Source: Verrucomicrobiota bacterium
Lineage (GTDB): Bacteria > Verrucomicrobiota > Verrucomicrobiia > JAWXBN01
Direction: 5' to 3'
Assembly (NCBI GenBank): GCA_034440155.1
Contig: JAWXBN010000015.1
Location: 1 to 32,917, forward strand
Length of the DNA: 32,917 bases
Part shown: piece after piece, positions 446-28,484 of the stretch
Layout of the letters: every line of letters begins with the position of its first letter
Numbering within the stretch: position 1 is the stretch's first letter
Made by a program: the position numbers and the translations under genes
Notes under the pieces: model-generated
What the model saw: only the letters and a program-made list of their open reading frames with translations
What the model was told of the DNA's origin: nothing
The model's database searches: none

Positions 446-2761
446 ATGAAGAAGATTTTATTAACCATTTTCGCGATGCTTGTTGTTGTGCCTCTCTGGG
501 CACAAAACCAGACATCGACCTCACAACCTGATGGCGCGAATTCCGGACCGATCGTCCGTGAAATCGAAGTCCAATACGCTGGCCCCCAGACTGTCACGAA
601 GAATGTGATTCTCTCCAATATGAGGACCACTGTCGGGCAAGGTTTCAGCCAGACAGCCATTGAAGAAGATATCCGTAACCTTTATGCTACAGGTTTCTTC
701 ACAAACCTCCGTATTTATGACGAACCCCTCATGGACGGCGTGAAAGTCGTCGTCATCGTCCAGGGCAAACCCACCGTGAAAGAAGTCGTTGTCCAAGGTT
801 TTAAATCCCTGAAAGAAAAAGCCATCCGTAAAGAAATTAAAACTAAACCGGGTAGTGTGATTGACGAAAAACAAATCTCCGATGATGCCCAGAAAATCAC
901 CGAGCTTTACGAGAAAAAGGGTTTTCCAAATGTCGCTGTGACCTACAAGATCGATACGAATGAACAATTTGGGCGTTCCACAGTGACCTATAACATCGAT
1001 GAAGGCGGTAAATACGTCATCAAACAAATTAATTTTGACGGCCTTAAACAGCTCGATGCAAAAACCCTCCGCAAGGAAATGAAGACCAAAAAAGAAGATT
1101 GGCTCTCGTGGATCATGGGTACGGGCAAACTCAAGAAGGAGCAATTTGAAGCTGACTTGGACAAGCTAAAAACCTACGTCATGAATCAGGGCTTTATTGA
1201 TTTCGAGATTAAAGACATCCAATACGAGTACCTCAATGACCGCGAAATGAATGTGACATTGGTTGTTTTTGAAGGAATCAAATACAAGGTGAATTCCATC
1301 ACGGTGGAAGGAAATGAACTTTATACCACTGACAAGGTCATGGCCAAGATCACCATGCCAGCGGGAGCGACATTTTCACCAAAAGGCAATGAAGAGAATA
1401 TCAAGTCCATCCAAGACCTCTATGGCATAGACGGGTATATTGATACCCGTATCCTGCCCGAAGTGCAGGCCAATATCCAGACAGGTATGATGGATGTGGT
1501 TTATAAAATTAAAGAAGGTCCGCAATCTTTTGTCCAAAAAGTCAAAATCGAGGGAAATACAGTCACCAAGGATAAAGTCATCCGCCGCGAGCTTGCTGTT
1601 AAACCTGGTGATGTTTATAACTCCGTGAGTGTGGATGCCAGTAAAGCCCGCCTCCAGAACTTAGGTTATTTCTCCAAGGTGGAAACTTATCCTGAGGAAA
1701 CCAGTGTCCCCACCCGCAAAAACCTCGTCATGAAGGTCGACGAGCAAAAAACAGGTTCATTCACTTTCGGTGCCGGTTTCAGCTCCATCGACTCAATCCT
1801 CGGGTTTGCCGAGTTGACACAAGGTAACTTTGATATCGCTAACTGGCCGAAATTCACCGGTGGCGGACAAAAAGCCCGTTTACGCGTTCAGTACGGTGCT
1901 CAACGTTCCGATTATACCTTGGCCTTTGTCGAGCCTTGGTTCTTGGACAAGATGCTTTCCTTAAGTGTGGATGCTTGGTACCGCACGGCCAGTTATTACA
2001 GTACCTTGTACAACCAAAGCACATACGGTTTTGCCACACGCTTGGAAAAACCTTGGGGCCAATTCTGGCGGACGGGTGTTGGATATCGTTTGGAGAATAT
2101 CAATATTTATAACCTCCAAACCACGGATCCTTTCTACTTGAGCCAAGCAGGCAATTACACAAAGAGTTCGATCAATGCAAATGCTGTTTATGATTCGCGC
2201 GACAATGTGTTCCTGACGCGTAAAGGGAACCGGACTGAGGCTTTTACCGAGTTAGCCGGTGGTCCTTTGGGCGGGAATGTACAGATTTACAAAATGACCG
2301 TGGAAAGCTCACAATACTTTGAAATCTTCAAGGATAATATCATCGTGCTCAACGGTGGCGCCGGTGCTGGGAATTTCTGGGGGGCTGGGACACAAGTGCC
2401 GATCTTTGACCGCTTCTACTTGGGTGGTGCAAATAATATGCGTGGTTTCGCCTACCGTGCGGTCAGTCCATATGACTCCCAAGGTAATGCCGTTGGTGGT
2501 TTGAGCTTTGCAAATTTCACCACAGAATATACATTCCCGATTATTGAACGTGTCCGCGGTGCAGTATTCTACGACGGAGGATTTGTAAATTCCGGGGCGT
2601 GGGACTTTTCACCGGATGATTATAACTCCGATGCGGGTATCGGGTTACGTTTAAATTTACCTATCGGTCCGATCCGTCTTGATTACGGTTATCCGCTCCA
2701 GTCGAACCAGTATAATAAATCCCATGGTAAATTCCAATTTAATGTTGGATATCAATTCTAA
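446..2761 (+). CDS. bamA: BamA, outer membrane protein assembly factor
   Basis: BamA is the Omp85-family core of the machine that folds and inserts beta-barrel proteins into the outer membrane. The frame is open from a TTG at 404, but I place the start at ATG 446 because the protein then begins with a signal peptide (MKKILLTIFAMLVVVPLWAQ) with cleavage probably after WAQ. That gives 771 residues, normal for the family. The first 400 or so residues contain repeated POTRA-type segments, for example VREIEVQYAGPQTV, VKEVVVQGFKSL, IKQINFDGLKQL, VNSITVEGNELY and VQKVKIEGNTV, consistent with five POTRA domains. The C-terminal half is a surface-antigen barrel with FYLGGANNMRGF, and the chain ends in FNVGYQF, whose terminal Phe is the usual barrel signal. 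It is the first of three envelope genes in a row. Confidence 0.95.
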   Translation: MKKILLTIFAMLVVVPLWAQNQTSTSQPDGANSGPIVREIEVQYAGPQTVTKNVILSNMRTTVGQGFSQTAIEEDIRNLYATGFFTNLRIYDEPLMDGVKVVVIVQGKPTVKEVVVQGFKSLKEKAIRKEIKTKPGSVIDEKQISDDAQKITELYEKKGFPNVAVTYKIDTNEQFGRSTVTYNIDEGGKYVIKQINFDGLKQLDAKTLRKEMKTKKEDWLSWIMGTGKLKKEQFEADLDKLKTYVMNQGFIDFEIKDIQYEYLNDREMNVTLVVFEGIKYKVNSITVEGNELYTTDKVMAKITMPAGATFSPKGNEENIKSIQDLYGIDGYIDTRILPEVQANIQTGMMDVVYKIKEGPQSFVQKVKIEGNTVTKDKVIRRELAVKPGDVYNSVSVDASKARLQNLGYFSKVETYPEETSVPTRKNLVMKVDEQKTGSFTFGAGFSSIDSILGFAELTQGNFDIANWPKFTGGGQKARLRVQYGAQRSDYTLAFVEPWFLDKMLSLSVDAWYRTASYYSTLYNQSTYGFATRLEKPWGQFWRTGVGYRLENINIYNLQTTDPFYLSQAGNYTKSSINANAVYDSRDNVFLTRKGNRTEAFTELAGGPLGGNVQIYKMTVESSQYFEIFKDNIIVLNGGAGAGNFWGAGTQVPIFDRFYLGGANNMRGFAYRAVSPYDSQGNAVGGLSFANFTTEYTFPIIERVRGAVFYDGGFVNSGAWDFSPDDYNSDAGIGLRLNLPIGPIRLDYGYPLQSNQYNKSHGKFQFNVGYQF

Positions 2762-2783
2762 AAGTAGTTAACCTTCTGGAATA

Positions 2784-3395
2784 ATGAAATTTATGATTAA
2801 GAAGCTTATCCTTATGGTCTTATTAGTGGGTACTGCGCATTTTGCACAGGCCCAGAATGCAAAGTTCGCCACGGTCGACATGAATAAAATCTTTGAGGGT
2901 TATTATAAAAAGGCTGATGCTGAAAAACGCCTAAAGGAACAAGCCGAGAGTTATAATAACGAGCGTAAGGTGTATGTGGATGGCCTCAAAAAAATCATGG
3001 ATGAAATGAATGTCCTGCGTAACGAAGCAAAAAACCAAGCCACCGCCGAAAAGGTCCAGGAAGAAAAGAAAAAAGCTTTTGTCATGAAGGGTGCCGAATA
3101 TGAGCAACGCATGAGGGAGCTCCAAGAGTTTGACGCCACACGCCGCCGCCAGCTCGCCGATGCATCCGATCGGATGCGCACAGGCATCGTTGATGACATC
3201 CGCAAGGTCGTCAATGATAAGTCTAAAAAAGAAGGATACACAATGGTTTTTGAAATCAGCGGATCAACGGCAAATGGCGCGCCTACTGTCCTTTATTCCA
3301 TGACTTCCATGGATATCAGCGATGATATTTCGAAGACATTGAATGCCAATAAACCGCCAGCAAGTGCTACTCCCGCACCTGCAAAGAAACCATAA
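2784..3395 (+). CDS. skp: OmpH/Skp family periplasmic chaperone
   Basis: Skp/OmpH proteins hold unfolded outer membrane proteins in the periplasm and hand them to BamA. The 203-residue product starts with a signal peptide ([20 protein letters not shown]) and probable cleavage near AQAQ. The mature protein opens with [15 protein letters not shown], the typical first strand and helix of the family. A long charged helical region (about residues 40-130) would form the tentacle-like coiled coil, and the protein closes with a strand containing [10 protein letters not shown] Pro/Ala-rich tail ([13 protein letters not shown]) is a local addition. ATG 2793 is an alternative start. It lies 22 bases after bamA and 2 bases before lpxD, so the three are very likely one operon. 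Confidence 0.9.
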
Positions 3396-3397
3396 TT

Positions 3398-4471
3398 TTG
3401 TCACGGGAAATCCGAGTGGAAGTATCCTTGGAAAAACTGACAGGACTGGTCCCCGGACAAATCGTGGGGACTTACGGGTACCCTTGTATTAATGGGGTCA
3501 ACAGCCTGAAGGCGGCCACCGAGACTGAAGTGTCTTTTTTGGGAAATAAAAAGTATTTACCACAAGTGGCCCAAAGTACGGCAGGGATTATTATCCTCCC
3601 AGAAGATTACAACGGATTACCCCGCCCCGGCCAGGCATTCATTAAAACACAAAACCCTTCCCAGGCCTTTTCCATTGTCGCAGGCCTTTTTGCCCCCATG
3701 GCCATTGTGTATGACCAAGGGATCCACCCGTCGGCTGTCATCCATCCTACTGCCAAGGTGAGTCCTTCAGCGTGTATCCAGCCAAATGCCGTCATTGGCG
3801 AATATTCTGTCATCGGCGACCATACGGTCATTGGTGCAAATTGTTATGTAGGGGCATTTACCCAGATCGGTGAAAATTGTCTAATCTACTCAAATGTCTC
3901 TATCCGAGAACGTTGTAAGGTCGGCAATCATGCGGTGATCCACAGTGGTGTCGTGGTTGGTTCTGATGGTTTCGGATTTGATTTACAGAGTGCTAATAGT
4001 AAGGTTCCCCAGACGGGGATAGTCCAGATCGATGATCATGTCGAGATCGGTGCTAATACGACAATCGACCGCGCCCGCTTTGGACGCACGTGGATACAGT
4101 CGGGAGTCAAAATCGATAACCTCGTGCAGATCGGGCACAATGTCGTGGTAAAGAAGAATACAATTATCGTCGCCCAAGTCGGGATCTCTGGCAGCACGGT
4201 GATCGGTGAAAATGTGATTATCGCAGGGCAAGTCGGCATTATCGGCCATATCGAAATAGGAGACGGCGCCATTGTGGCCGCGCAATCAGGGGTCAGTAAG
4301 GATGTCCCCCCCAAACGAATCTGGTCCAGCCAGTTCCACGCCCGCGAAATGAAAGATTTTTACCAAATGGAAGCCTCCATGAAGAGGTTACCCGTCCTCC
4401 GCAAAAAAGTCCTTGAGTTGGAAGCGAAATTAAAACAGCTCGAAGCAAAATTCCCCGCGTCGGATTCCTAA
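3398..4471 (+). CDS. lpxD: LpxD, UDP-3-O-(3-hydroxyacyl)glucosamine N-acyltransferase
   Basis: LpxD adds the second, N-linked hydroxyacyl chain to UDP-acylglucosamine in lipid A synthesis. The 357-residue protein has an N-terminal substrate-binding domain with SFLGNKKYL, then a left-handed beta helix built from hexapeptide repeats (about residues 110-305) and a helical C-terminus. [11 protein letters not shown] contains the expected catalytic histidine, His247. The annotated start is a TTG two bases after the skp stop; a GTG at 3416 is a second candidate, and neither has a clear ribosome-binding site, suggesting translational coupling. The usual downstream partners (lpxC, fabZ, lpxA) are not here: the next gene, tex, faces the opposite way. 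Confidence 0.93.
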
Positions 4472-4481
4472 ATCTAGGGGG

Positions 4482-4497
4482 GAGGTTGATGAACCTC
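4482..4497. terminator. short hairpin between convergent lpxD and tex
   Basis: GAGGTT (4482-4487) pairs with AACCTC (4492-4497) around the loop GATG, and the right arm overlaps the tex stop codon. A T-rich tail is weak on both strands. Its position between convergent stops suits a bidirectional terminator, but the stem is only 6 bp. Confidence 0.35.
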
Positions 4498-6766
4498 ATT
4501 TCAGCTTGGAAAAAGCATCCCCAAAGGCGCTGCCGAAACCGGAGGAGGAGCTGCCGCGACTTGGGTTACGCTGTGCACTGTCAGTTTTAGGTTTTGGTCC
4601 CCCGCCACCGGCACGGTTCTCACCGATAACAGGATTTTTCTTCATGGATAGGGCGATACGTTTACGTGCGAGGTCGATTTCTGTGATGGTGACTTCGACG
4701 CGTTGGGCCACTTTGACGACATCGGCAGCATTTTGGACAAATTGATCTGAGAGCTGGCTGACGTGGACGAGGCCGTCCTGGTGGACACCGATATCTACAA
4801 AGGCACCAAAAGCGGTGACATTGGTGATGATGCCCGGCAGTTTCATACCGGTCTTTAGGTCGCTCATTTCATTAACGCCCTCGGCGAAACTAAAAGCTTC
4901 AAATTGCTGGCGCGGGTCGCGTCCGGGTTTGGCCAGCTCATTCATGATATCCTTGAGCGTGGGGAGCCCTACCTTATCATCGACATACTTGTGGAGATCG
5001 ATTTTTTTGCGGAGTTCCTCCTTCGACATAAGGTCCGTGACGGAGCATCCCAGATCCGTAGCCATTTTTTCGACGACATGGTAACTTTCGGGGTGGACTG
5101 CACTTGAGTCCAGGGGGTTTGTAGCCCCGCGGATGCGCATGAATCCTGCGGCCTGCTCAAATGCCTTTGGCCCGAGGCGCGGGACCTTTTGCAGGTCGGC
5201 CCGGGATTTGAAGGGACCGGTTTCATTCCGGTGATTAATGATATTTAGGGCGATTTGTGCGTTGAGACCGGAGACATAACTCAGGAGTTGTTTACTCGCG
5301 CTATTCACCTCGACCCCGACATTATTCACACAGGAAATGACGACATCATCGAGCCCGCGTTTCAGGAGTGTCTGCTCGACATCATGCTGGTATTGGCCGA
5401 CCCCGATTGATTTTGGGTCGAGCTTGACGAGTTCCGCCAGCGGGTCTTGTAGGCGGCGGCCGATGGACACCGAGCCACGGACGGTAATGTCGTGGTCGGG
5501 GAATTCCTCACGGGCGACGTCCGAGGCGGAGTAAATGGAGGCACCACTTTCATTGACCATGACCACAGTAATAGAGGGGGCGAGTTTGAGTCCTTTGACA
5601 AAAGTCTCTGTTTCACGACTGGCAGTGCCGTTACCGATGGCGATGGCCTCGATTTTAAAATGTTGGCAAAAGCCGCGGATTTTAACAGCGGATTCTTCGA
5701 CCTCCATTTTCCCCATGGCTGGATAAATAACATCATTGTGGAGCAATTTGCCTTGGGCATCGAGGATCGTGAGCTTGCAACCAGTGCGGAAGCCTGGGTC
5801 GAGGGCGAGAATACACTTTTGACCGAGGGGAGAGGCTAAAAGCAATTCACGCAGGTTCTCGGCAAAAACGCGGATGCCCTCTTGATCAGCCCTTTTTTTC
5901 CCATCGAGCCGGGCTTCTGTTTCCATCGACAGGCTTAATAACCGTTTATAACAATCACTAATGGCCGCCTTGACTTGGAGGGCGCCGGCAGATTTGCCTT
6001 TGCAGAAAAGGTCTTCGAGGATATTGATCGCCTGGTCTTCGGCTGGCTGGATACGGTAATAAAGGAATCCTTCGGCTTCCCCGCGGCGGATCGCCAGCAA
6101 ACGGTGCGAGGGGATCGAACGGATCGGCTCGACCCATTCAAAGTAATCCTTGAATTTGGACCCTTCCTCTTCCTTGCCCGGCACCACCCGGGATTTGATC
6201 TCGGCGTGCTGGAGGAAAAGGGCGCGGATTTTCTCGCGCGCAGTTTTGTCGTCGCTGATTTTTTCGGCAATGATATCCCGCGCCCCGACGAGGGCGTCTT
6301 CCTCGGTTTTCACTTCTTTTTCAGGGTTGATATATTTCCGGGCTTCCGTGACCGGATCCACCGTTTCTTGTGAATCAAAAATAAGATCGGCTAGGGGTTC
6401 GAGATCCTTTTCCTTGGCGATTTGTGCGCGGGTGCGTTTTTTGGGTTTATAGGGCTGGTAAAGATCTTCAAGTTCATTGAGGTTTTGGGCGGCTTCGATT
6501 CCTTTTTTCAAGGTGTCGTGGAGCAAATTGCGTTCGGTCAGGGATTTGAGGATTGATTCACGACGGGAGTCTAGGTCGACTAGCTCAGTGAGACGGTCAC
6601 GGATTTTCGCGATTTGCACTTCATCGAGGGAGCCGGTGATTTCCTTACGGTAACGGGCGATGAATGGCACCGTGGCCCCCCCTTCAATCAGAAGGGAAAC
6701 GGCTTTAACCTGAATGGGTTTTAGTGAGAGTTCCTTAGCGACTTTTTCAAAATGAAGATCAACCAT
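4496..6766 (-). CDS. tex: Tex-family RNA-binding transcription accessory protein
   Basis: Tex proteins are cytoplasmic nucleic-acid-binding proteins associated with transcription. The 756-residue product shows the full family layout: an N-terminal helical region with VPFIARYRKEITGSLDE, an RNase H-like YqgF domain (ILALDPGFRTGCKLTILD, around residue 325), helix-hairpin-helix segments (LGPKAFEQAAGFMRIRG) and an S1 RNA-binding domain at about 645-715 (GIITNVTAFGAFVDIGV, DGLVHVSQLSD). It ends in a Gly/Ser-rich basic tail. The start is the ATG whose complement is at 6764-6766. It converges on lpxD and diverges from the SulP gene, so it is probably transcribed alone. It contains two copies of the GCAAATTGC word, at 5743 and 6523. 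Confidence 0.93.
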   Translation of the reverse strand: MVDLHFEKVAKELSLKPIQVKAVSLLIEGGATVPFIARYRKEITGSLDEVQIAKIRDRLTELVDLDSRRESILKSLTERNLLHDTLKKGIEAAQNLNELEDLYQPYKPKKRTRAQIAKEKDLEPLADLIFDSQETVDPVTEARKYINPEKEVKTEEDALVGARDIIAEKISDDKTAREKIRALFLQHAEIKSRVVPGKEEEGSKFKDYFEWVEPIRSIPSHRLLAIRRGEAEGFLYYRIQPAEDQAINILEDLFCKGKSAGALQVKAAISDCYKRLLSLSMETEARLDGKKRADQEGIRVFAENLRELLLASPLGQKCILALDPGFRTGCKLTILDAQGKLLHNDVIYPAMGKMEVEESAVKIRGFCQHFKIEAIAIGNGTASRETETFVKGLKLAPSITVVMVNESGASIYSASDVAREEFPDHDITVRGSVSIGRRLQDPLAELVKLDPKSIGVGQYQHDVEQTLLKRGLDDVVISCVNNVGVEVNSASKQLLSYVSGLNAQIALNIINHRNETGPFKSRADLQKVPRLGPKAFEQAAGFMRIRGATNPLDSSAVHPESYHVVEKMATDLGCSVTDLMSKEELRKKIDLHKYVDDKVGLPTLKDIMNELAKPGRDPRQQFEAFSFAEGVNEMSDLKTGMKLPGIITNVTAFGAFVDIGVHQDGLVHVSQLSDQFVQNAADVVKVAQRVEVTITEIDLARKRIALSMKKNPVIGENRAGGGGPKPKTDSAQRNPSRGSSSSGFGSAFGDAFSKLK

Positions 6767-21669: not shown

Positions 21670-24333
21670 ATGTCTGCGGCGCAGAAAACACTTATCCTCT
21701 TTTTCGGTTCGCTTGTCGGCCTTTTGGCTGCCTGCGTTGCTCTTTGGTATTTTTTGGCGACACCGGGGGTGCTTTTTAGCCTAGCACTCTTTTCTTTAGG
21801 GATGCTCCTGCTCCGAGAAGAGGGGGAAAAGTCGCTGAAGATCATCCTTGAAACTTATTTTACCCACCGCAGCCTTGCCCTGCATGAGGCGAAGGTAAAT
21901 ATCCTCGAAATCCTCGAGGCACCCGTTCCTTTTATCCTCCGTGAAGAATATGAAATGCAGCTAGAGGAAACTTTCATCAGCCAAAGTGATGAACCCACAG
22001 GCATCGAGAAAAAGAAGAAGTGGCGCCGTTTCCGCCGTCGGCGCGCCCGCCCGCTCCACCGTTTTCTTACCGTCGAGATGGAAATCAATCCTTCGGTGAC
22101 CACCGTCGACGGCCAACCAGCCGTGTGGGATGCGTTAGAGGTTCGATTTGCCAAATACGATGAGCCGGTTCCGGGGATTGATCTGGATGAGATCCCGTCT
22201 GAAGAAGAAGGGGCCGAGATTGTCGGTTGGGAAGTCTGGCATAATGATGACTTCCGTATCGAGACATCCCCTGAAATGACGGGTACCAAACGGGTTATTT
22301 ATTATCTTCATCTCCATGGGCCGGAAGTCAAAAGGATCCAAGTACGTTACCTTTATGAAGACCTAGGGACACCTTTCGATGTGCCCGCCCTGCCTGATGC
22401 CCCAAAAACCGCTCTCTTCCACCATCCAGCCCGCAAAAATACCCAACCCCTTTCAAAGCCCGCGATCGCCACCGGTGCGTCAAAGGAACCTGAAGCTATC
22501 ACCGTCAAAGCCCCGGCACTTCCTGAAAAGCCAAAGACGGAAACCCCCAAGGAAACGCCGGAAAAAGTAACCAGTGAATCCTCGGCTGTCGTTATTGCCC
22601 AAAAAGATCAGATTCCGCAGGCTAAAGAAACGGGCGCGGCCAAAATGTCCGAAGAGAAAAAGGATTCCGCTGTTGGGACAAAAGAAACTCCTCTGTCCAA
22701 GGAAGAGCCTGTAGTTAAGACGGACAAGGACAAAAAGGAGTCTGCCGTTGAGCCAAAAGAAATGCCTTTGACCAAGGAAGAGCCTGTAGTCAAGACGGAC
22801 AAGGACAAAAAGGATTCCGCTGTTGGGGCAAAAGAAATGCCTGTGGCCAAGGAAGAGCCCGTGGCCAAGACGGACAAAGACAAAAAGGAGTCTGCCGTTG
22901 AGCCAAAAGAAATGCCTGTGACCAAGGAAGAGCCTGTAGTCAAGACGGACAAGGACAAAAAGGATTCCGCTGTTGGGGCAAAAGAAATGCCTCTGTCCAA
23001 GGAAGAGCCTGTAGTTAAGACGGACAAGGACAAAAAGGAGTCTGCCGTTGAGCCAAAAGAAATGCCTGTGGCCAAGGAAGAGCCTGTAGTCAAGACGGAC
23101 AAGGACATAAAGGATACGGCTCCTTCCAAACAAATTGTTTTGGATATAACCGACGAGAAGAAAGAAATTCCTTCGGAAGTGAAAACCGAATCACCCCGGA
23201 TTGATGCCCCTGTAGGGATAACGCGTCCTATCCCCCCAGTCCAAAGGAAACCCGAAAAGAAGCCTGAGACTCCTATTCCACCGGCTGAAAAATCTTTATC
23301 AGAGAAGAAAAAGGACGAACCCGCTCCGGAGGCCAAAGACAAGGCTGGAAATAAATCGCCCGGAGAAAAAATGGTCGTTCCTGAGGGAGAAACCGCCGAA
23401 TCTCTCGTGAAGATACCAGTGCCGGTACCAGCACACAAAGGCCAGGGAGGGCCTGTCCAGCCCTCAATTACGGTAAAGCCCGTAACTGCGCAAATTGCTT
23501 CACCAGAAATTCAAAAACCGGCCTCTGTTGAAACGGAGATTAAAAAGGCCGATGTCCTAGTGCCCGACCAGACCTCTGCGCAAATTGTCGCGGATAAAGT
23601 AGTGGAAAAAGAGGTTTCGGTACCACTGGTTGCGACTGCTCCCCCCGCCCCGCCTCTCAAAGAAAAACTCGCCCAAGGTTTGGAGAAACTCAAAACCTTT
23701 TTTGGACATGTGAAGAAGGATACAGTACAGAAAACAGTCCATATCGCAGCGCTCACGAGTGTAAAATACAAGACTGTGCAGTCGCGTTACCAGGTTTTCA
23801 CGAATAATCTGGAAGCCAAAGTCAAAGACTTCTCCACAAAGTTGCATGAGAGGAACATGCAAAAAATGGAGTCGATGAAAATTACAATTCCACCCGTGAA
23901 AATCGCTGATTTAAAAACGACACCTCCCCCGTCGATTGAAGTGGACAAGAAAAAAACCGTTAAAATCAACAAGGATCGGGAATTGATCCTGCAACCCGAG
24001 ATTACACATCCTAAAAAAGTCAAGGCACCGGATTCACCTGCCATTAATCTCGCGGTTGAAATGTCGGATGAAAAACCCGGTTCAGAGGGTAATCCTATCG
24101 ATGAGGATTATACGGAGTTCCATTACTTTGTGATTCGCACGGGCGAAGAGCAGGAGGGGCCTTTCGAGTATGATGCTGTCCAGGCCATGTTCGAGAGCGG
24201 GGAATTACGTAGCGAACATCTTATTTGGTACCCCGGACTGGCTGATTGGACACCGATTTCTGACATTGAGGAGGTTATTGAGGAAGAACCTTCAAACAGC
24301 GCAGGCAGCCAGGATGTTTTCTATAAGGGGTAA
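21670..24333 (+). CDS. membrane protein with tandem KxDSAV...KTDKD repeats and C-terminal GYF-like domain
   Basis: The 887-residue protein has no family I can name as a whole. Residues 5-50 form two close membrane spans (LILFFGSLVGLLAACVALWY and a second ending near LLL). A folded cytoplasmic section follows (about 55-240), with a very basic patch WRRFRRRRARP. The middle (about 250-650) is a low-complexity Lys/Glu/Pro/Val linker containing six 25-residue tandem repeats (residues 330-479). A helical section then leads to a C-terminal domain of about 60 residues (YFVIRTGEEQEGPFEYDAVQ to WYPGLADWTPISDIEE), which matches the GYF_2 (DUF4339) type. Such domains usually bind short peptides. The protein looks like a tethered scaffold. 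Confidence 0.75.
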   Translation: MSAAQKTLILFFGSLVGLLAACVALWYFLATPGVLFSLALFSLGMLLLREEGEKSLKIILETYFTHRSLALHEAKVNILEILEAPVPFILREEYEMQLEETFISQSDEPTGIEKKKKWRRFRRRRARPLHRFLTVEMEINPSVTTVDGQPAVWDALEVRFAKYDEPVPGIDLDEIPSEEEGAEIVGWEVWHNDDFRIETSPEMTGTKRVIYYLHLHGPEVKRIQVRYLYEDLGTPFDVPALPDAPKTALFHHPARKNTQPLSKPAIATGASKEPEAITVKAPALPEKPKTETPKETPEKVTSESSAVVIAQKDQIPQAKETGAAKMSEEKKDSAVGTKETPLSKEEPVVKTDKDKKESAVEPKEMPLTKEEPVVKTDKDKKDSAVGAKEMPVAKEEPVAKTDKDKKESAVEPKEMPVTKEEPVVKTDKDKKDSAVGAKEMPLSKEEPVVKTDKDKKESAVEPKEMPVAKEEPVVKTDKDIKDTAPSKQIVLDITDEKKEIPSEVKTESPRIDAPVGITRPIPPVQRKPEKKPETPIPPAEKSLSEKKKDEPAPEAKDKAGNKSPGEKMVVPEGETAESLVKIPVPVPAHKGQGGPVQPSITVKPVTAQIASPEIQKPASVETEIKKADVLVPDQTSAQIVADKVVEKEVSVPLVATAPPAPPLKEKLAQGLEKLKTFFGHVKKDTVQKTVHIAALTSVKYKTVQSRYQVFTNNLEAKVKDFSTKLHERNMQKMESMKITIPPVKIADLKTTPPPSIEVDKKKTVKINKDRELILQPEITHPKKVKAPDSPAINLAVEMSDEKPGSEGNPIDEDYTEFHYFVIRTGEEQEGPFEYDAVQAMFESGELRSEHLIWYPGLADWTPISDIEEVIEEEPSNSAGSQDVFYKG
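22657..23106 (+). repeat. six tandem 75-bp coding repeats of two alternating types
   Basis: Six in-frame units of 25 codons run without gaps. Odd units begin KKDSAVG(T/A)KE, even units begin KKESAVEPKE, and all end in KTDKD, so the array is really three copies of a 150-bp pair. A seventh, degenerate start (IKDTAPSKQ) follows. The near-identity at DNA level suggests recent expansion by slippage or unequal recombination, and copy number may vary between strains. Confidence 0.92.
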
Positions 24334-24422: not shown

Positions 24423-27400
24423 ATGTTTCCCGTCATTTCCAGCAAATCACTCGAACGCATGAAAGCTTTCTGTGCCGTTGTAGTGGTTGCAACCGGGCTA
24501 ATGGTTCTTTTCGGGTGGTGGCAGGATATTGGGTTATTCATTTACGTGCATAAGAGCTTTCAAGCGATGAATCCGCTCACTGCTCTAAATTTTGTACTCA
24601 CAGGTATAGCTCTTTACATCTCAAACCGTTGTGTTGGTCGTCGAGCCTTGGGTGTTCTTTTGATTTTTTGCTGTTTTTTTGTACTGATGACCTCCTCGTT
24701 GAGGATACTTGATATCTCTGGAATTACCCAGTTTGACATCGACCACCTGCTTTTTTCTGAAAAGGTGAATGATAACCATATGAAGCCTGTGGCGGCTTTA
24801 AATTTTATCCTAGCTTGCTTTGGTTTGCTCGGGGTGAATTTCCGCTGGTGCCGGAAAATCCTGCCGCCTGAAATTATTATTGTTCCTCCATTGCTCTTAC
24901 TATCCATGGGGCTGCTGGGATGTGTAGTTGATATTGTGCTTTTTCAGGAGCTTATCTTCATTATTCCTGTCCCTATCCATACCGCCATGGTCTTCTGGAT
25001 ATTATGTGCCGGTATTATCATGACCCCTTATGCGGGGGGTATGGCCGGGGTGGTACTCGAGAAAAACGGTCCGCTCAAGCCCCACCAACTCATTTACCGG
25101 ATTATCCGCCAGTCCCCTTTGGCATGGATTCTCCTTGTTATTTCCATCCTGGTGACAGGAACCATCTGGAGGATGTCTTCACAATCAATGAGGGCAGAGG
25201 TTGATAAGAATTTTAATCTCCGATGCGCGGAGATTAATTCTGTCATCCTTAGTAGGATTGATTCCTGTGAACTCATCCTGAGTGGTGCCCGCGGGCTTTT
25301 CCATGCCAGCAACCGTGTGACTTATGATGAATGGGCGGATTATGCAAAAAGCCTTCATATTAATGATGCAATATCTGAGTTAAAAGGGATTGGATTCATC
25401 TCTTATGTAAGGGCTGGGCAATTACAGGGTTTTCTTAAAAAGGAAAACAAAGAGCGTACTCTTCCATTACAGCCGAGGAATCTTGATAACGCGGCGGCGG
25501 ATTTTTTTATTGTGAATTACTTTGATCAGGTACCCGGAAGTAGCGATCTCATCGGGAGTGATTTTGGGCAGGACCCCCGAATAAGGCGCGCATTGGAGAG
25601 GACTCTTGAGACAGATTCATTTTCTATGAGCCCGGTGATCGTTTTAGAAGGGGAATCCTCACGGAGTTTCGATATCTTTCTCCCCGTTTATGATATCCAT
25701 CAGGTGGGTGGAGGAAATGCTCCCCGCGGAAAGGCTGGGTTGGCTGGATGGGTTTTTGGTGTTTTTAATGTGGATGACCTCATGCAAAAGGTCCGGGGGT
25801 CCACTGATCCGGGAATCCGTTTTGAAATATTCGACGGACCTTCTATTCTGGCGGAAAATTTGATTTACAGTAGTACCCGCCAAATATTTTCGTCTTCACC
25901 GGCTAATCCGGAGAGGTTCCATTCCATCCAAAATATATTTTTCCCTGGGCATCAATGGACTGTTCGTTATTCATCATTGCCTGCCTTTGAGTTAACTTTT
26001 TCAGACCGGCAATCATCCATTATTCTTAATGCCGGGCTTTTGTTGAGCATATTACTTTTCGGGGTGACATGGTCGCTGAGCAATACCCGGGCGCATGCTG
26101 AAGAAATTGCCGAGCGGATGACCGCCGAGTTAAAAATCAAAGATAAAGCCTTTGCCTCCGTCAATAACGGCATTCTGATTTCGGATGCCACCCGTCCGGA
26201 TATGCCGATTATTTATGTCAATGAGGCATTCTGCCGTATTACGGGATATTCACCGGAAGATGTCATTGGGAAAAACTGCCGCTTTCTCCAAAATGATGAC
26301 AGGCAACAACCCGCTATCGAAGAAATCCGCCACGCCCTGAAGACAGGTATCCCTTGCGATACGGTATTAAGGAATTACCGGAAAGACGGCACACTCTTTT
26401 ATAATGAGTTTTCGATATCCCCGATCAAATCAGTTGATGGCAAAATTTCTCATTTTGTCGGTATCCAGCAGGATATTACCGAGCGTAAGAATATCGAAAG
26501 AAACCTCAAAGAAAGTGAACGAAAATACCGGACGGTCGTTGACTCTGTCCAGGAAGTCATTTTCCAGATGGACTTCAGCGGGCATTGGACATTTCTGAGT
26601 GCCGCTTGGCGTACGATGACTGGTTATCAGGTGGATGAGTCCCTAGGCCATAGTTTTCTCCGTTATATTCATCCCCTCGATAGAACCATGATCTCCGAGA
26701 ATTTCCGGGGACTCCTCACAAAATCCGATGCCTCTTGCCGCCTCGAAGTCCGGGTTCTTTCCAAAGATGATACTTACCAGTGGACGGAGCTCACCATCCA
26801 AAAACGCCCGGGTGAAAAAGGAGAGCGTATGATTCTTCCGGGGACAATCATGAATATTAGCGAGAGGAAACGTGCCGAGGAGATGACGGCCCGGGCCCGG
26901 GATGCCGCGATACAAAGTGCCCGGATGAAAGCCGATTTTCTCGCCAATATGAGCCATGAAATCCGGACTCCGCTCAACGGGATCGTCGGGATGGCCGGGC
27001 TCCTAGCCGATAGCTCTCTCGGGCGTGAACAGAAAGACTTTGTACAAACCATCCGCTCTTGTGCGGACTCGTTAATGGGGATCATTAATGACATCCTTGA
27101 TTTTTCAAAAATCGAGGCAGGTAAACTCTCCTTTGAAACACTGGATTTTAACCTCCGCAATGCGGTGGAAAACTCCATGGATATGGTTTCTGGAGGCATG
27201 GGGGCAAAATCGATCGAGCTTGCTTTCGATATTCATGATGATGTCCCTGTCTATCTCCAGGGAGACCCCGGCCGTCTAAAACAGATTCTTGTGAACTTGA
27301 TTAATAATGCAGCCAAATTCACAGAGAAAGGGGAAGTTGTTATCACTATTTCGGTTGATTCGTTCGCCGGCGAAAAGGCCCTGATCAAGACAGAGGTGCG

Positions 27401-28484
27401 TGACACGGGTATCGGTATTTCCCCGGACAAGCTTCAAGATCTTTTCCAGCCATTTGTCCAGGCAGACACATCCACGACGCGCAAATACGGAGGGACTGGT
27501 TTGGGATTGAGTATCAGCCGGCAATTGGTCACACTGATGGGTGGAACCATGGGAGTCCATAGTGAGCTTGGTGCCGGGTCGACGTTTTGGTTTACCATTC
27601 CCTTTGATTTACAGAGCCAGCCCCCAAAAGGGTATGACCCATCTGGATCTCATCTCAAAGGAGCGCGGGTGCTGATTCTCGATGATAATGAAACCAACCG
27701 CCGGATTCTTTTACATCAATTAAAAAATTGGGACCTTTTAGCCGATGAGCTTGCAGACTCCCGGTTAGCCTTCGACACTTTGATGAAGGCCAAGGAAGCC
27801 GGCAGTCCCTATGACATTTTGTTGCTGGACATGCAAATGCCTTTCTTGGACGGGCTGGGGGTGGCTAAAGCGATCCAATCCTATCGGGGATTGTCCGAGT
27901 TATCCATTTTATTAATGACCTCTGGATCCCCTGGTAGTCAGGAGATGGCTTTTTATAAAGCCTTTGGCATCAGGCAATGCCTGACAAAACCGCTCAAACA
28001 ATCAGTATTATTTGATGCTCTGTCCTGTATTTTGGAACACTCATTAGCATCCTCCACTGCCGCGTCAACCCCGGTTCCCATGGGCCTTCGGGATTCCTCC
28101 GAGAAAAAATCTTTCCGTATTTTGATTGCCGAGGATAATATTACCAACCAGAAAGTCGCACTCCTCCAGCTCGCCAAGCTTGGTTATGAAGCCGATACTG
28201 TAGCCAATGGGCTGGAGGTGATCGAGGCACTTTCGCGTATCCCTTACAAAATTATCCTGATGGATTGCCAAATGCCCGAAATGGATGGATACACGGCTTC
28301 CTCAGTGATCAGGATGAATGAAAAGGATGATTATCACCCGGTGATTATCGCCATGACTGCCCACGCCATGGAAGGTGACGAGAAAAAATGTTTGGACGCC
28401 GGTATGGATGATTATATCTCCAAACCGGTCAATATGGTCAGCCTCAAGACTATACTTGAAAAATGGACAAAAAAAATCGGGTGA
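24423..28484 (+). CDS. hybrid histidine kinase: multi-span membrane region, CHASE, LOV-type PAS, PAS, HisKA, HATPase, two REC domains
   Basis: This 1353-residue sensor begins with about seven to eight membrane spans, including the MNPLTALNFVLTGIALYI segment seen in several sensor families. A periplasmic CHASE domain follows (about 260-425, ELKGIGFISYVRAGQ and DPRIRRALERTLETDSFSMS), then another span (about 530-550). PAS1 (about 575-688) has LOV features: GKNCRFLQ with Cys619, LRNYRKDG, FYNEFSISPI and HFVGIQQDITERK. PAS2 covers about 695-820. The phosphoacceptor is His845 in MSHEIRTPLNG, with ATPase boxes NLINNAAKF, DTGIGISPD and GGTGLGLSI. REC1 has Asp1136 and REC2 Asp1281. There is no HPt domain, so phosphate must leave through a separate HPt protein. 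No response regulator gene is adjacent. Confidence 0.93.
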   Translation: MFPVISSKSLERMKAFCAVVVVATGLMVLFGWWQDIGLFIYVHKSFQAMNPLTALNFVLTGIALYISNRCVGRRALGVLLIFCCFFVLMTSSLRILDISGITQFDIDHLLFSEKVNDNHMKPVAALNFILACFGLLGVNFRWCRKILPPEIIIVPPLLLLSMGLLGCVVDIVLFQELIFIIPVPIHTAMVFWILCAGIIMTPYAGGMAGVVLEKNGPLKPHQLIYRIIRQSPLAWILLVISILVTGTIWRMSSQSMRAEVDKNFNLRCAEINSVILSRIDSCELILSGARGLFHASNRVTYDEWADYAKSLHINDAISELKGIGFISYVRAGQLQGFLKKENKERTLPLQPRNLDNAAADFFIVNYFDQVPGSSDLIGSDFGQDPRIRRALERTLETDSFSMSPVIVLEGESSRSFDIFLPVYDIHQVGGGNAPRGKAGLAGWVFGVFNVDDLMQKVRGSTDPGIRFEIFDGPSILAENLIYSSTRQIFSSSPANPERFHSIQNIFFPGHQWTVRYSSLPAFELTFSDRQSSIILNAGLLLSILLFGVTWSLSNTRAHAEEIAERMTAELKIKDKAFASVNNGILISDATRPDMPIIYVNEAFCRITGYSPEDVIGKNCRFLQNDDRQQPAIEEIRHALKTGIPCDTVLRNYRKDGTLFYNEFSISPIKSVDGKISHFVGIQQDITERKNIERNLKESERKYRTVVDSVQEVIFQMDFSGHWTFLSAAWRTMTGYQVDESLGHSFLRYIHPLDRTMISENFRGLLTKSDASCRLEVRVLSKDDTYQWTELTIQKRPGEKGERMILPGTIMNISERKRAEEMTARARDAAIQSARMKADFLANMSHEIRTPLNGIVGMAGLLADSSLGREQKDFVQTIRSCADSLMGIINDILDFSKIEAGKLSFETLDFNLRNAVENSMDMVSGGMGAKSIELAFDIHDDVPVYLQGDPGRLKQILVNLINNAAKFTEKGEVVITISVDSFAGEKALIKTEVRDTGIGISPDKLQDLFQPFVQADTSTTRKYGGTGLGLSISRQLVTLMGGTMGVHSELGAGSTFWFTIPFDLQSQPPKGYDPSGSHLKGARVLILDDNETNRRILLHQLKNWDLLADELADSRLAFDTLMKAKEAGSPYDILLLDMQMPFLDGLGVAKAIQSYRGLSELSILLMTSGSPGSQEMAFYKAFGIRQCLTKPLKQSVLFDALSCILEHSLASSTAASTPVPMGLRDSSEKKSFRILIAEDNITNQKVALLQLAKLGYEADTVANGLEVIEALSRIPYKIILMDCQMPEMDGYTASSVIRMNEKDDYHPVIIAMTAHAMEGDEKKCLDAGMDDYISKPVNMVSLKTILEKWTKKIG

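Follow-up and report, generated by a model that had tools for sequence, protein, structure and literature searches.

LOV domains sense blue light through a flavin-cysteine bond, and CHASE domains as a family bind small extracellular ligands. Each is well known, and their fusion in one protein is uncommon. On the photosensory side, the closest described systems are the LOV histidine kinases, i.e., Brucella LOV-HK (6pps/6ph4), the engineered YF1 (4gcz) and SB2F1 (8a3u), which share the placement of a LOV domain upstream of a histidine kinase, and whose photochemistry and glutamine relay have been reviewed (PMC6798134). Most of the known LOV and phytochrome receptors are soluble and reside in the cytosol (PMC6798134), and histidine kinases make up about half of 1390 bacterial LOV proteins, some of these kinases having extra sensing domains (PMC4844311). 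On the chemosensory side, PcrK of Xanthomonas (6k62; PMC7804937), a cytokinin sensor whose pocket was closed in its crystal structure (PMC7072313), and plant AHK4 carry a periplasmic or extracellular CHASE domain in a histidine kinase, and in the parts of the sources consulted a LOV domain goes unmentioned for either. In CdgD of Azospirillum, two membrane helices flank the CHASE domain and a cytoplasmic PAS domain comes next, although that PAS is not called a LOV and the output is GGDEF-EAL (PMC7804937).

The protein described here, encoded in a window of 32,917 nucleotides from a Verrucomicrobiota bacterium (the whole stretch of DNA that was analysed), combines the two sensors. The initial annotation had reported a hybrid histidine kinase on the forward strand at 24423-28484, and the open reading frame proved to be intact with precisely those coordinates and that strand. 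Its CHASE domain, the multi-span membrane region ahead of it, the kinase core and two receivers had also been proposed, and all were recovered by Pfam, hydropathy and AlphaFold2, which gave the domain order 6TM-TM7-CHASE-TM8-LOV-PAS-HisKA-HATPase-REC-REC. That the gene encodes a CHASE and LOV hybrid histidine kinase is well supported, and its features are as follows:

24423..28484, + strand: whole gene, 1353 aa, ATG start (open reading frame list and Pfam)
24441..25019, + strand: six-helix N-terminal membrane module, aa 7-199 (AlphaFold2, pLDDT 85.5, six long helices)
25113..25169, + strand: TM7, aa 231-249, exit to the periplasm (hydropathy; a basic loop precedes it)
25314..25868, + strand: CHASE domain, aa 298-482, predicted periplasmic (PF03924, E = 1.8e-25)
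26013..26069, + strand: TM8, aa 531-549, return to the cytoplasm (hydropathy)
26145..26483, + strand: LOV photosensor, aa 575-687 (PDB sequence matches, AlphaFold2, Foldseek)
26277..26279, + strand: codon of the adduct cysteine C619 (NCRFLQ at 618-623)
26523..26867, + strand: second PAS domain, about aa 701-815 (PF08447/PF00989)
26928..27122, + strand: HisKA dimerisation and phospho-acceptor domain, aa 836-900, with His845 (PF00512, E = 8.6e-23)
27261..27608, + strand: HATPase_c catalytic domain, aa 947-1062 (PF02518, E = 2.9e-30; N, G1 and G2 boxes)
27663..28022, + strand: receiver 1, phospho-acceptor D1136 (Response_reg in two stretches; boundaries by motif)
28119..28457, + strand: receiver 2, phospho-acceptor D1281 (Response_reg at 1233-1345; motifs)

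The protein shares with the bacterial LOV histidine kinases the adduct cysteine and the active-site glutamine, and with Brucella LOV-HK (6pps) the succession of LOV and then PAS. Unlike them, it is membrane-anchored, with a periplasmic CHASE domain, an additional membrane module and two receivers. It does not constitute a new class, since many bacterial LOV proteins are kinases and some of these have extra sensors (PMC4844311). Our literature searches found no account of CHASE and LOV in one bacterial protein, with the caveat that the survey of Glantz et al. 2016, which lay outside their scope, may list some.

The evidence is strong that the first PAS domain is a LOV domain, with the residues of its photochemical pocket intact. 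The LOV signature was complete (N618, C619, R620, Q623, R636, N651, N661 and Q682, with the cysteine in the context GKNCRFLQ). The adduct motif NCRFLQ singled out in the initial annotation starts at residue 618, which does make its cysteine C619, and the flavin-contact positions named there fall on N651 (the Asn of LRNYRKDG), N661 (the Asn of FYNEF) and Q682 (the Gln of GIQQD). Sequence matches in the PDB were to the Pseudomonas short LOV protein, YtvA, phototropin, aureochrome, Brucella LOV-HK and LOV chimeras, and included a LOV diguanylate cyclase at E = 7.9e-36. An AlphaFold2 model of the domain, built from 36 window and locus sequences, had a mean pLDDT of 92.1, and in a Foldseek search of the PDB with this model each of the 50 top-ranked structures was a LOV domain (best E = 7e-16, TMq up to 0.95). 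As a control, residues were scored at the columns of a purpose-built LOV model, counting every domain that it matched, and the signature was present in 29 of 44 high-scoring LOV-like domains versus none of 87 weaker PAS domains, among which was the second PAS of the window protein itself. The LOV identity proposed initially thus held in sequence matches, fold and control alike. The placement of Cys619 in the flavin pocket is supported in a more qualified manner, through homology and fold: in the AlphaFold2 model, which contains no flavin, C619 (model residue 50) opens a short helix (50-54) where helix E-alpha is expected. A second exact NCRFLQ-type match to the DNA of the genome (C93:6454) sat in no long open frame, and matches with one mismatch yielded no LOV, in a search that is blind to degenerate LOV domains.

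The CHASE domain covers its profile over the full length (PF03924 positions 2-189 of 189), is flanked by TM7 and TM8, and is the sole CHASE domain found in a search of the genome. Its only sequence match in the PDB was to 6k62, and the similarity was weak (E = 1.1e-7). In total eight membrane helices are predicted, six from the AlphaFold2 model and the two flanking CHASE from hydropathy. The succession of six helices, a basic loop at residues 200-230, TM7, CHASE, TM8 and a charged helix leading into the LOV domain is the reason for which the latter is placed in the cytoplasm; as judged from the sequence, CHASE would be periplasmic and everything beyond residue 549 cytoplasmic. The six-helix module had no Pfam match above the cut-off and no significant match in a fold search of the PDB, and 13 of the 288 further genomes sampled from the phylum carry homologues (L088-L101), behind which lie histidine kinases, PAS-kinases and, once, a chemotaxis (MCP) output. 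The module has the look of a MASE-like sensor domain not yet described; the initial annotation had not singled it out as a domain in its own right, nor remarked on the missing HPt. It contains an internal near-repeat (MNPxTALxFxLxG ... MxPxxALNFxL).

The second PAS domain lacks the LOV signature, the residues at the LOV columns being SLRIHRVTLI. Downstream of it, His845, the N, G1 and G2 boxes, and the Asp, Thr and Lys of both receivers are intact, as befits a hybrid histidine kinase, and to judge by these residues both receivers look functional. Pfam detected no Hpt domain in the protein, which therefore differs from a complete phosphorelay kinase of the BarA/TorS type, and the NCBIfam BarA/TorS models scored far below their cut-offs. 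The genome encodes three HPt domains, two within larger frames and one in a frame of 171 aa (G000 C77), and this apparently stand-alone HPt protein would be the natural candidate partner of the kinase. His845 lies 161 residues from the LOV DIT motif, which is a multiple of seven, and 34 residues from the motif of the second PAS, spacings from which, in one sequence, nothing firm follows. A promoter and terminator scan performed no better than on shuffled sequences, and no RNA was matched in an Rfam search.

The CHASE-LOV fusion is not unique to this genome, since five further CHASE-LOV kinases were found in the same class, with LOV-like domains that scored 187-198 bits. The relatives (L161-L165) share with the window protein the CHASE domain, the TM after it, a LOV at the same place and the kinase core; they differ in that their CHASE domains start 103-165 aa into the frame, which leaves no room for a six-helix module. 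At the two photochemical positions they read as follows:

L005/L161: Ala in place of Cys, Gln retained
L080/L162: Pro in place of Cys, Ser in place of Gln; GAF domain
L006/L163: Cys kept, Ser at Gln; GAF domain; C-terminal HPt
L068/L164: Cys kept, Ser at Gln; GAF domain; C-terminal HPt
L007/L165: Cys kept, His at the position of Q623, Leu at Gln

The adduct cysteine is thus missing in two of the five, the active-site glutamine in four and both in one. As every relative has lost one or both, the complete pair is confined to the window protein (one of six), and the CHASE-LOV architecture does not strictly preserve the light chemistry (none of the five relatives keeps both). The replacements of Cys (Ala, Pro) and Gln (Ser, Leu) may be a natural series in which LOV domains decay or are put to new uses, and as such offer a means of studying how LOV domains lose or alter light sensing. 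Loss of these residues need not mean loss of signalling: Cys-less LOV domains can signal through photoreduction (PMC6798134), and naturally Gln-deficient LOV receptors have been described, most of whose substitutions still signal (PMC9098866). The relatives bearing Ser or Leu resemble these receptors, unlike the window protein, which keeps its Gln, and on that precedent the Gln-less relatives may still sense light. At the end of the L162 frame (1936-5601), which encodes a CHASE-LOV-GAF-PAS kinase, a PemK/MazF-like match (1112-1218, E = 5e-8) immediately follows the kinase core; either the output is unusual or the match is an artefact of the assembly or the frame.

Outside the class, no CHASE-LOV protein was present among about 20 loci examined from the cyanobacterial phylum (386 genomes) and the class holding Methylococcaceae (369 genomes). 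These surveys, of about 755 genomes, used a strict E cut-off and scored at most four candidates per genome, so that they do not prove absence. At the loci examined in the phylum, in cyanobacteria and in gammaproteobacteria, the other CHASE proteins had ordinary PAS domains or none. Two plasmid CHASE-PAS candidates that were examined (Caballeronia and Yersinia ruckeri) were without the LOV signature. The viral contigs searched gave only a LOV-GGDEF protein with no CHASE domain; this protein, of 333 aa with an intact NCRxLQ signature, occurs on three IMG/VR contigs (L158, L159 and L160), for which host contamination is possible. In the LOV tree, the five relatives grouped together (83/86) with two other rows and the window LOV was unplaced, and in the CHASE tree the window CHASE sat on a long branch, which together leave both a single fusion and several fusions admissible.

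Given this anatomy, the protein is probably a hybrid kinase that is anchored in the membrane, regulated by blue light and additionally responsive to a periplasmic signal, and that passes phosphate on via a separate HPt protein. It is reasonable to suppose that one protein would integrate light and a chemical signal in this manner, and we infer flavin binding, a photocycle, a CHASE ligand, the integration of the inputs and the phosphorelay route from the same domains. Blue light would generate a thioadduct between C619 and the flavin C4a, with protonation of flavin N5 and a flip of Q682. The resulting strain in a LOV dimer would then be transmitted along the coiled-coil helix after DITERK, through the second PAS, to the kinase. 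Input from CHASE, the second signal and a periplasmic one, would arrive via TM7, TM8 and the helix entering the LOV domain, and the six-helix membrane module may provide a third. Phosphate would move from His845 to D1136 and D1281, on to a separate HPt protein and then to a response regulator; a separate HPt protein is invoked because both receivers look functional but the protein itself has no HPt domain. More tentatively, and with the balance of our judgement against it, three inputs (six-helix sensor, CHASE and LOV) might jointly set one kinase, in a class-level CHASE-LOV group in which one member after another has lost or changed parts of the light chemistry (Cys in some, Gln in others), the window protein alone having the full set. 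A complete LOV directly behind a transmembrane CHASE domain would make it possible to study how photon and ligand are combined in one receptor, and whether the sensing of an outside chemical is gated by light.

Other readings of the same anatomy were weighed. The domain could be a generic PAS that binds no flavin, has acquired NCRFLQ by chance and has no function in light, a reading prompted by the library matches to the region, which are to generic PAS models (Pfam PAS, aa 582-687) or a partial YtvA-family match below the cut-off (NCBIfam YtvA_fam, LOV part only, 158.8 bits against 250, which places the protein outside that family). It is close to refuted by the full set of contact residues, the sequence and fold matches to LOV only, and the lack of the signature throughout the control PAS domains. 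An improbable reading is that the LOV does bind flavin but chiefly senses redox state or oxygen, with CHASE as the main signal and light incidental. LOV flavins are reducible at near-physiological potentials, and a Cys-less LOV is still able to signal through N5 protonation (PMC6798134); two of the relatives have Ala or Pro in place of the adduct cysteine. Redox sensing alone, however, would need neither C619 nor Q682, and the window protein retains both; a photolyase-type gene in the genome is also consistent with, while no proof of, exposure to light.

We further regard it as quite unlikely that the LOV is photoactive and CHASE a ligand-free structural anchor, i.e., that the protein is an ordinary LOV histidine kinase that happens to be membrane-bound. 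Such a role would fit the weak resemblance of CHASE to PcrK, and even the pocket of PcrK crystallised closed (PMC7072313), whereas the window CHASE is of full length with a good score, and the domain is present in all five LOV-bearing relatives.

Counting against the favoured reading, of a light-regulated kinase with a periplasmic input, are the replaced Cys or Gln in each of the five relatives and the genes nearby. The neighbourhood encodes glucose-6-phosphate and 6-phosphogluconate dehydrogenases, a GYF-domain protein, chorismate synthase and a nucleoside-phosphorylase-family protein, the GYF-domain and chorismate synthase genes being the immediate neighbours, and no obvious light-linked partner gene was among them. 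The initial annotation had called the protein unexpected among plain housekeeping genes; the neighbours are indeed housekeeping genes, and the unexpectedness carries little weight, given that histidine-kinase and PAS-type loci are plentiful in the genome (37 matches to the window protein), that a photolyase/cryptochrome-type gene lies elsewhere in it, and that the class holds the five other CHASE-LOV kinases. Within the neighbouring GYF-domain gene (21670-24333), a 75-bp unit is repeated six times in tandem at 22657-23114, and the repeats that it encodes are rich in Lys and Glu.
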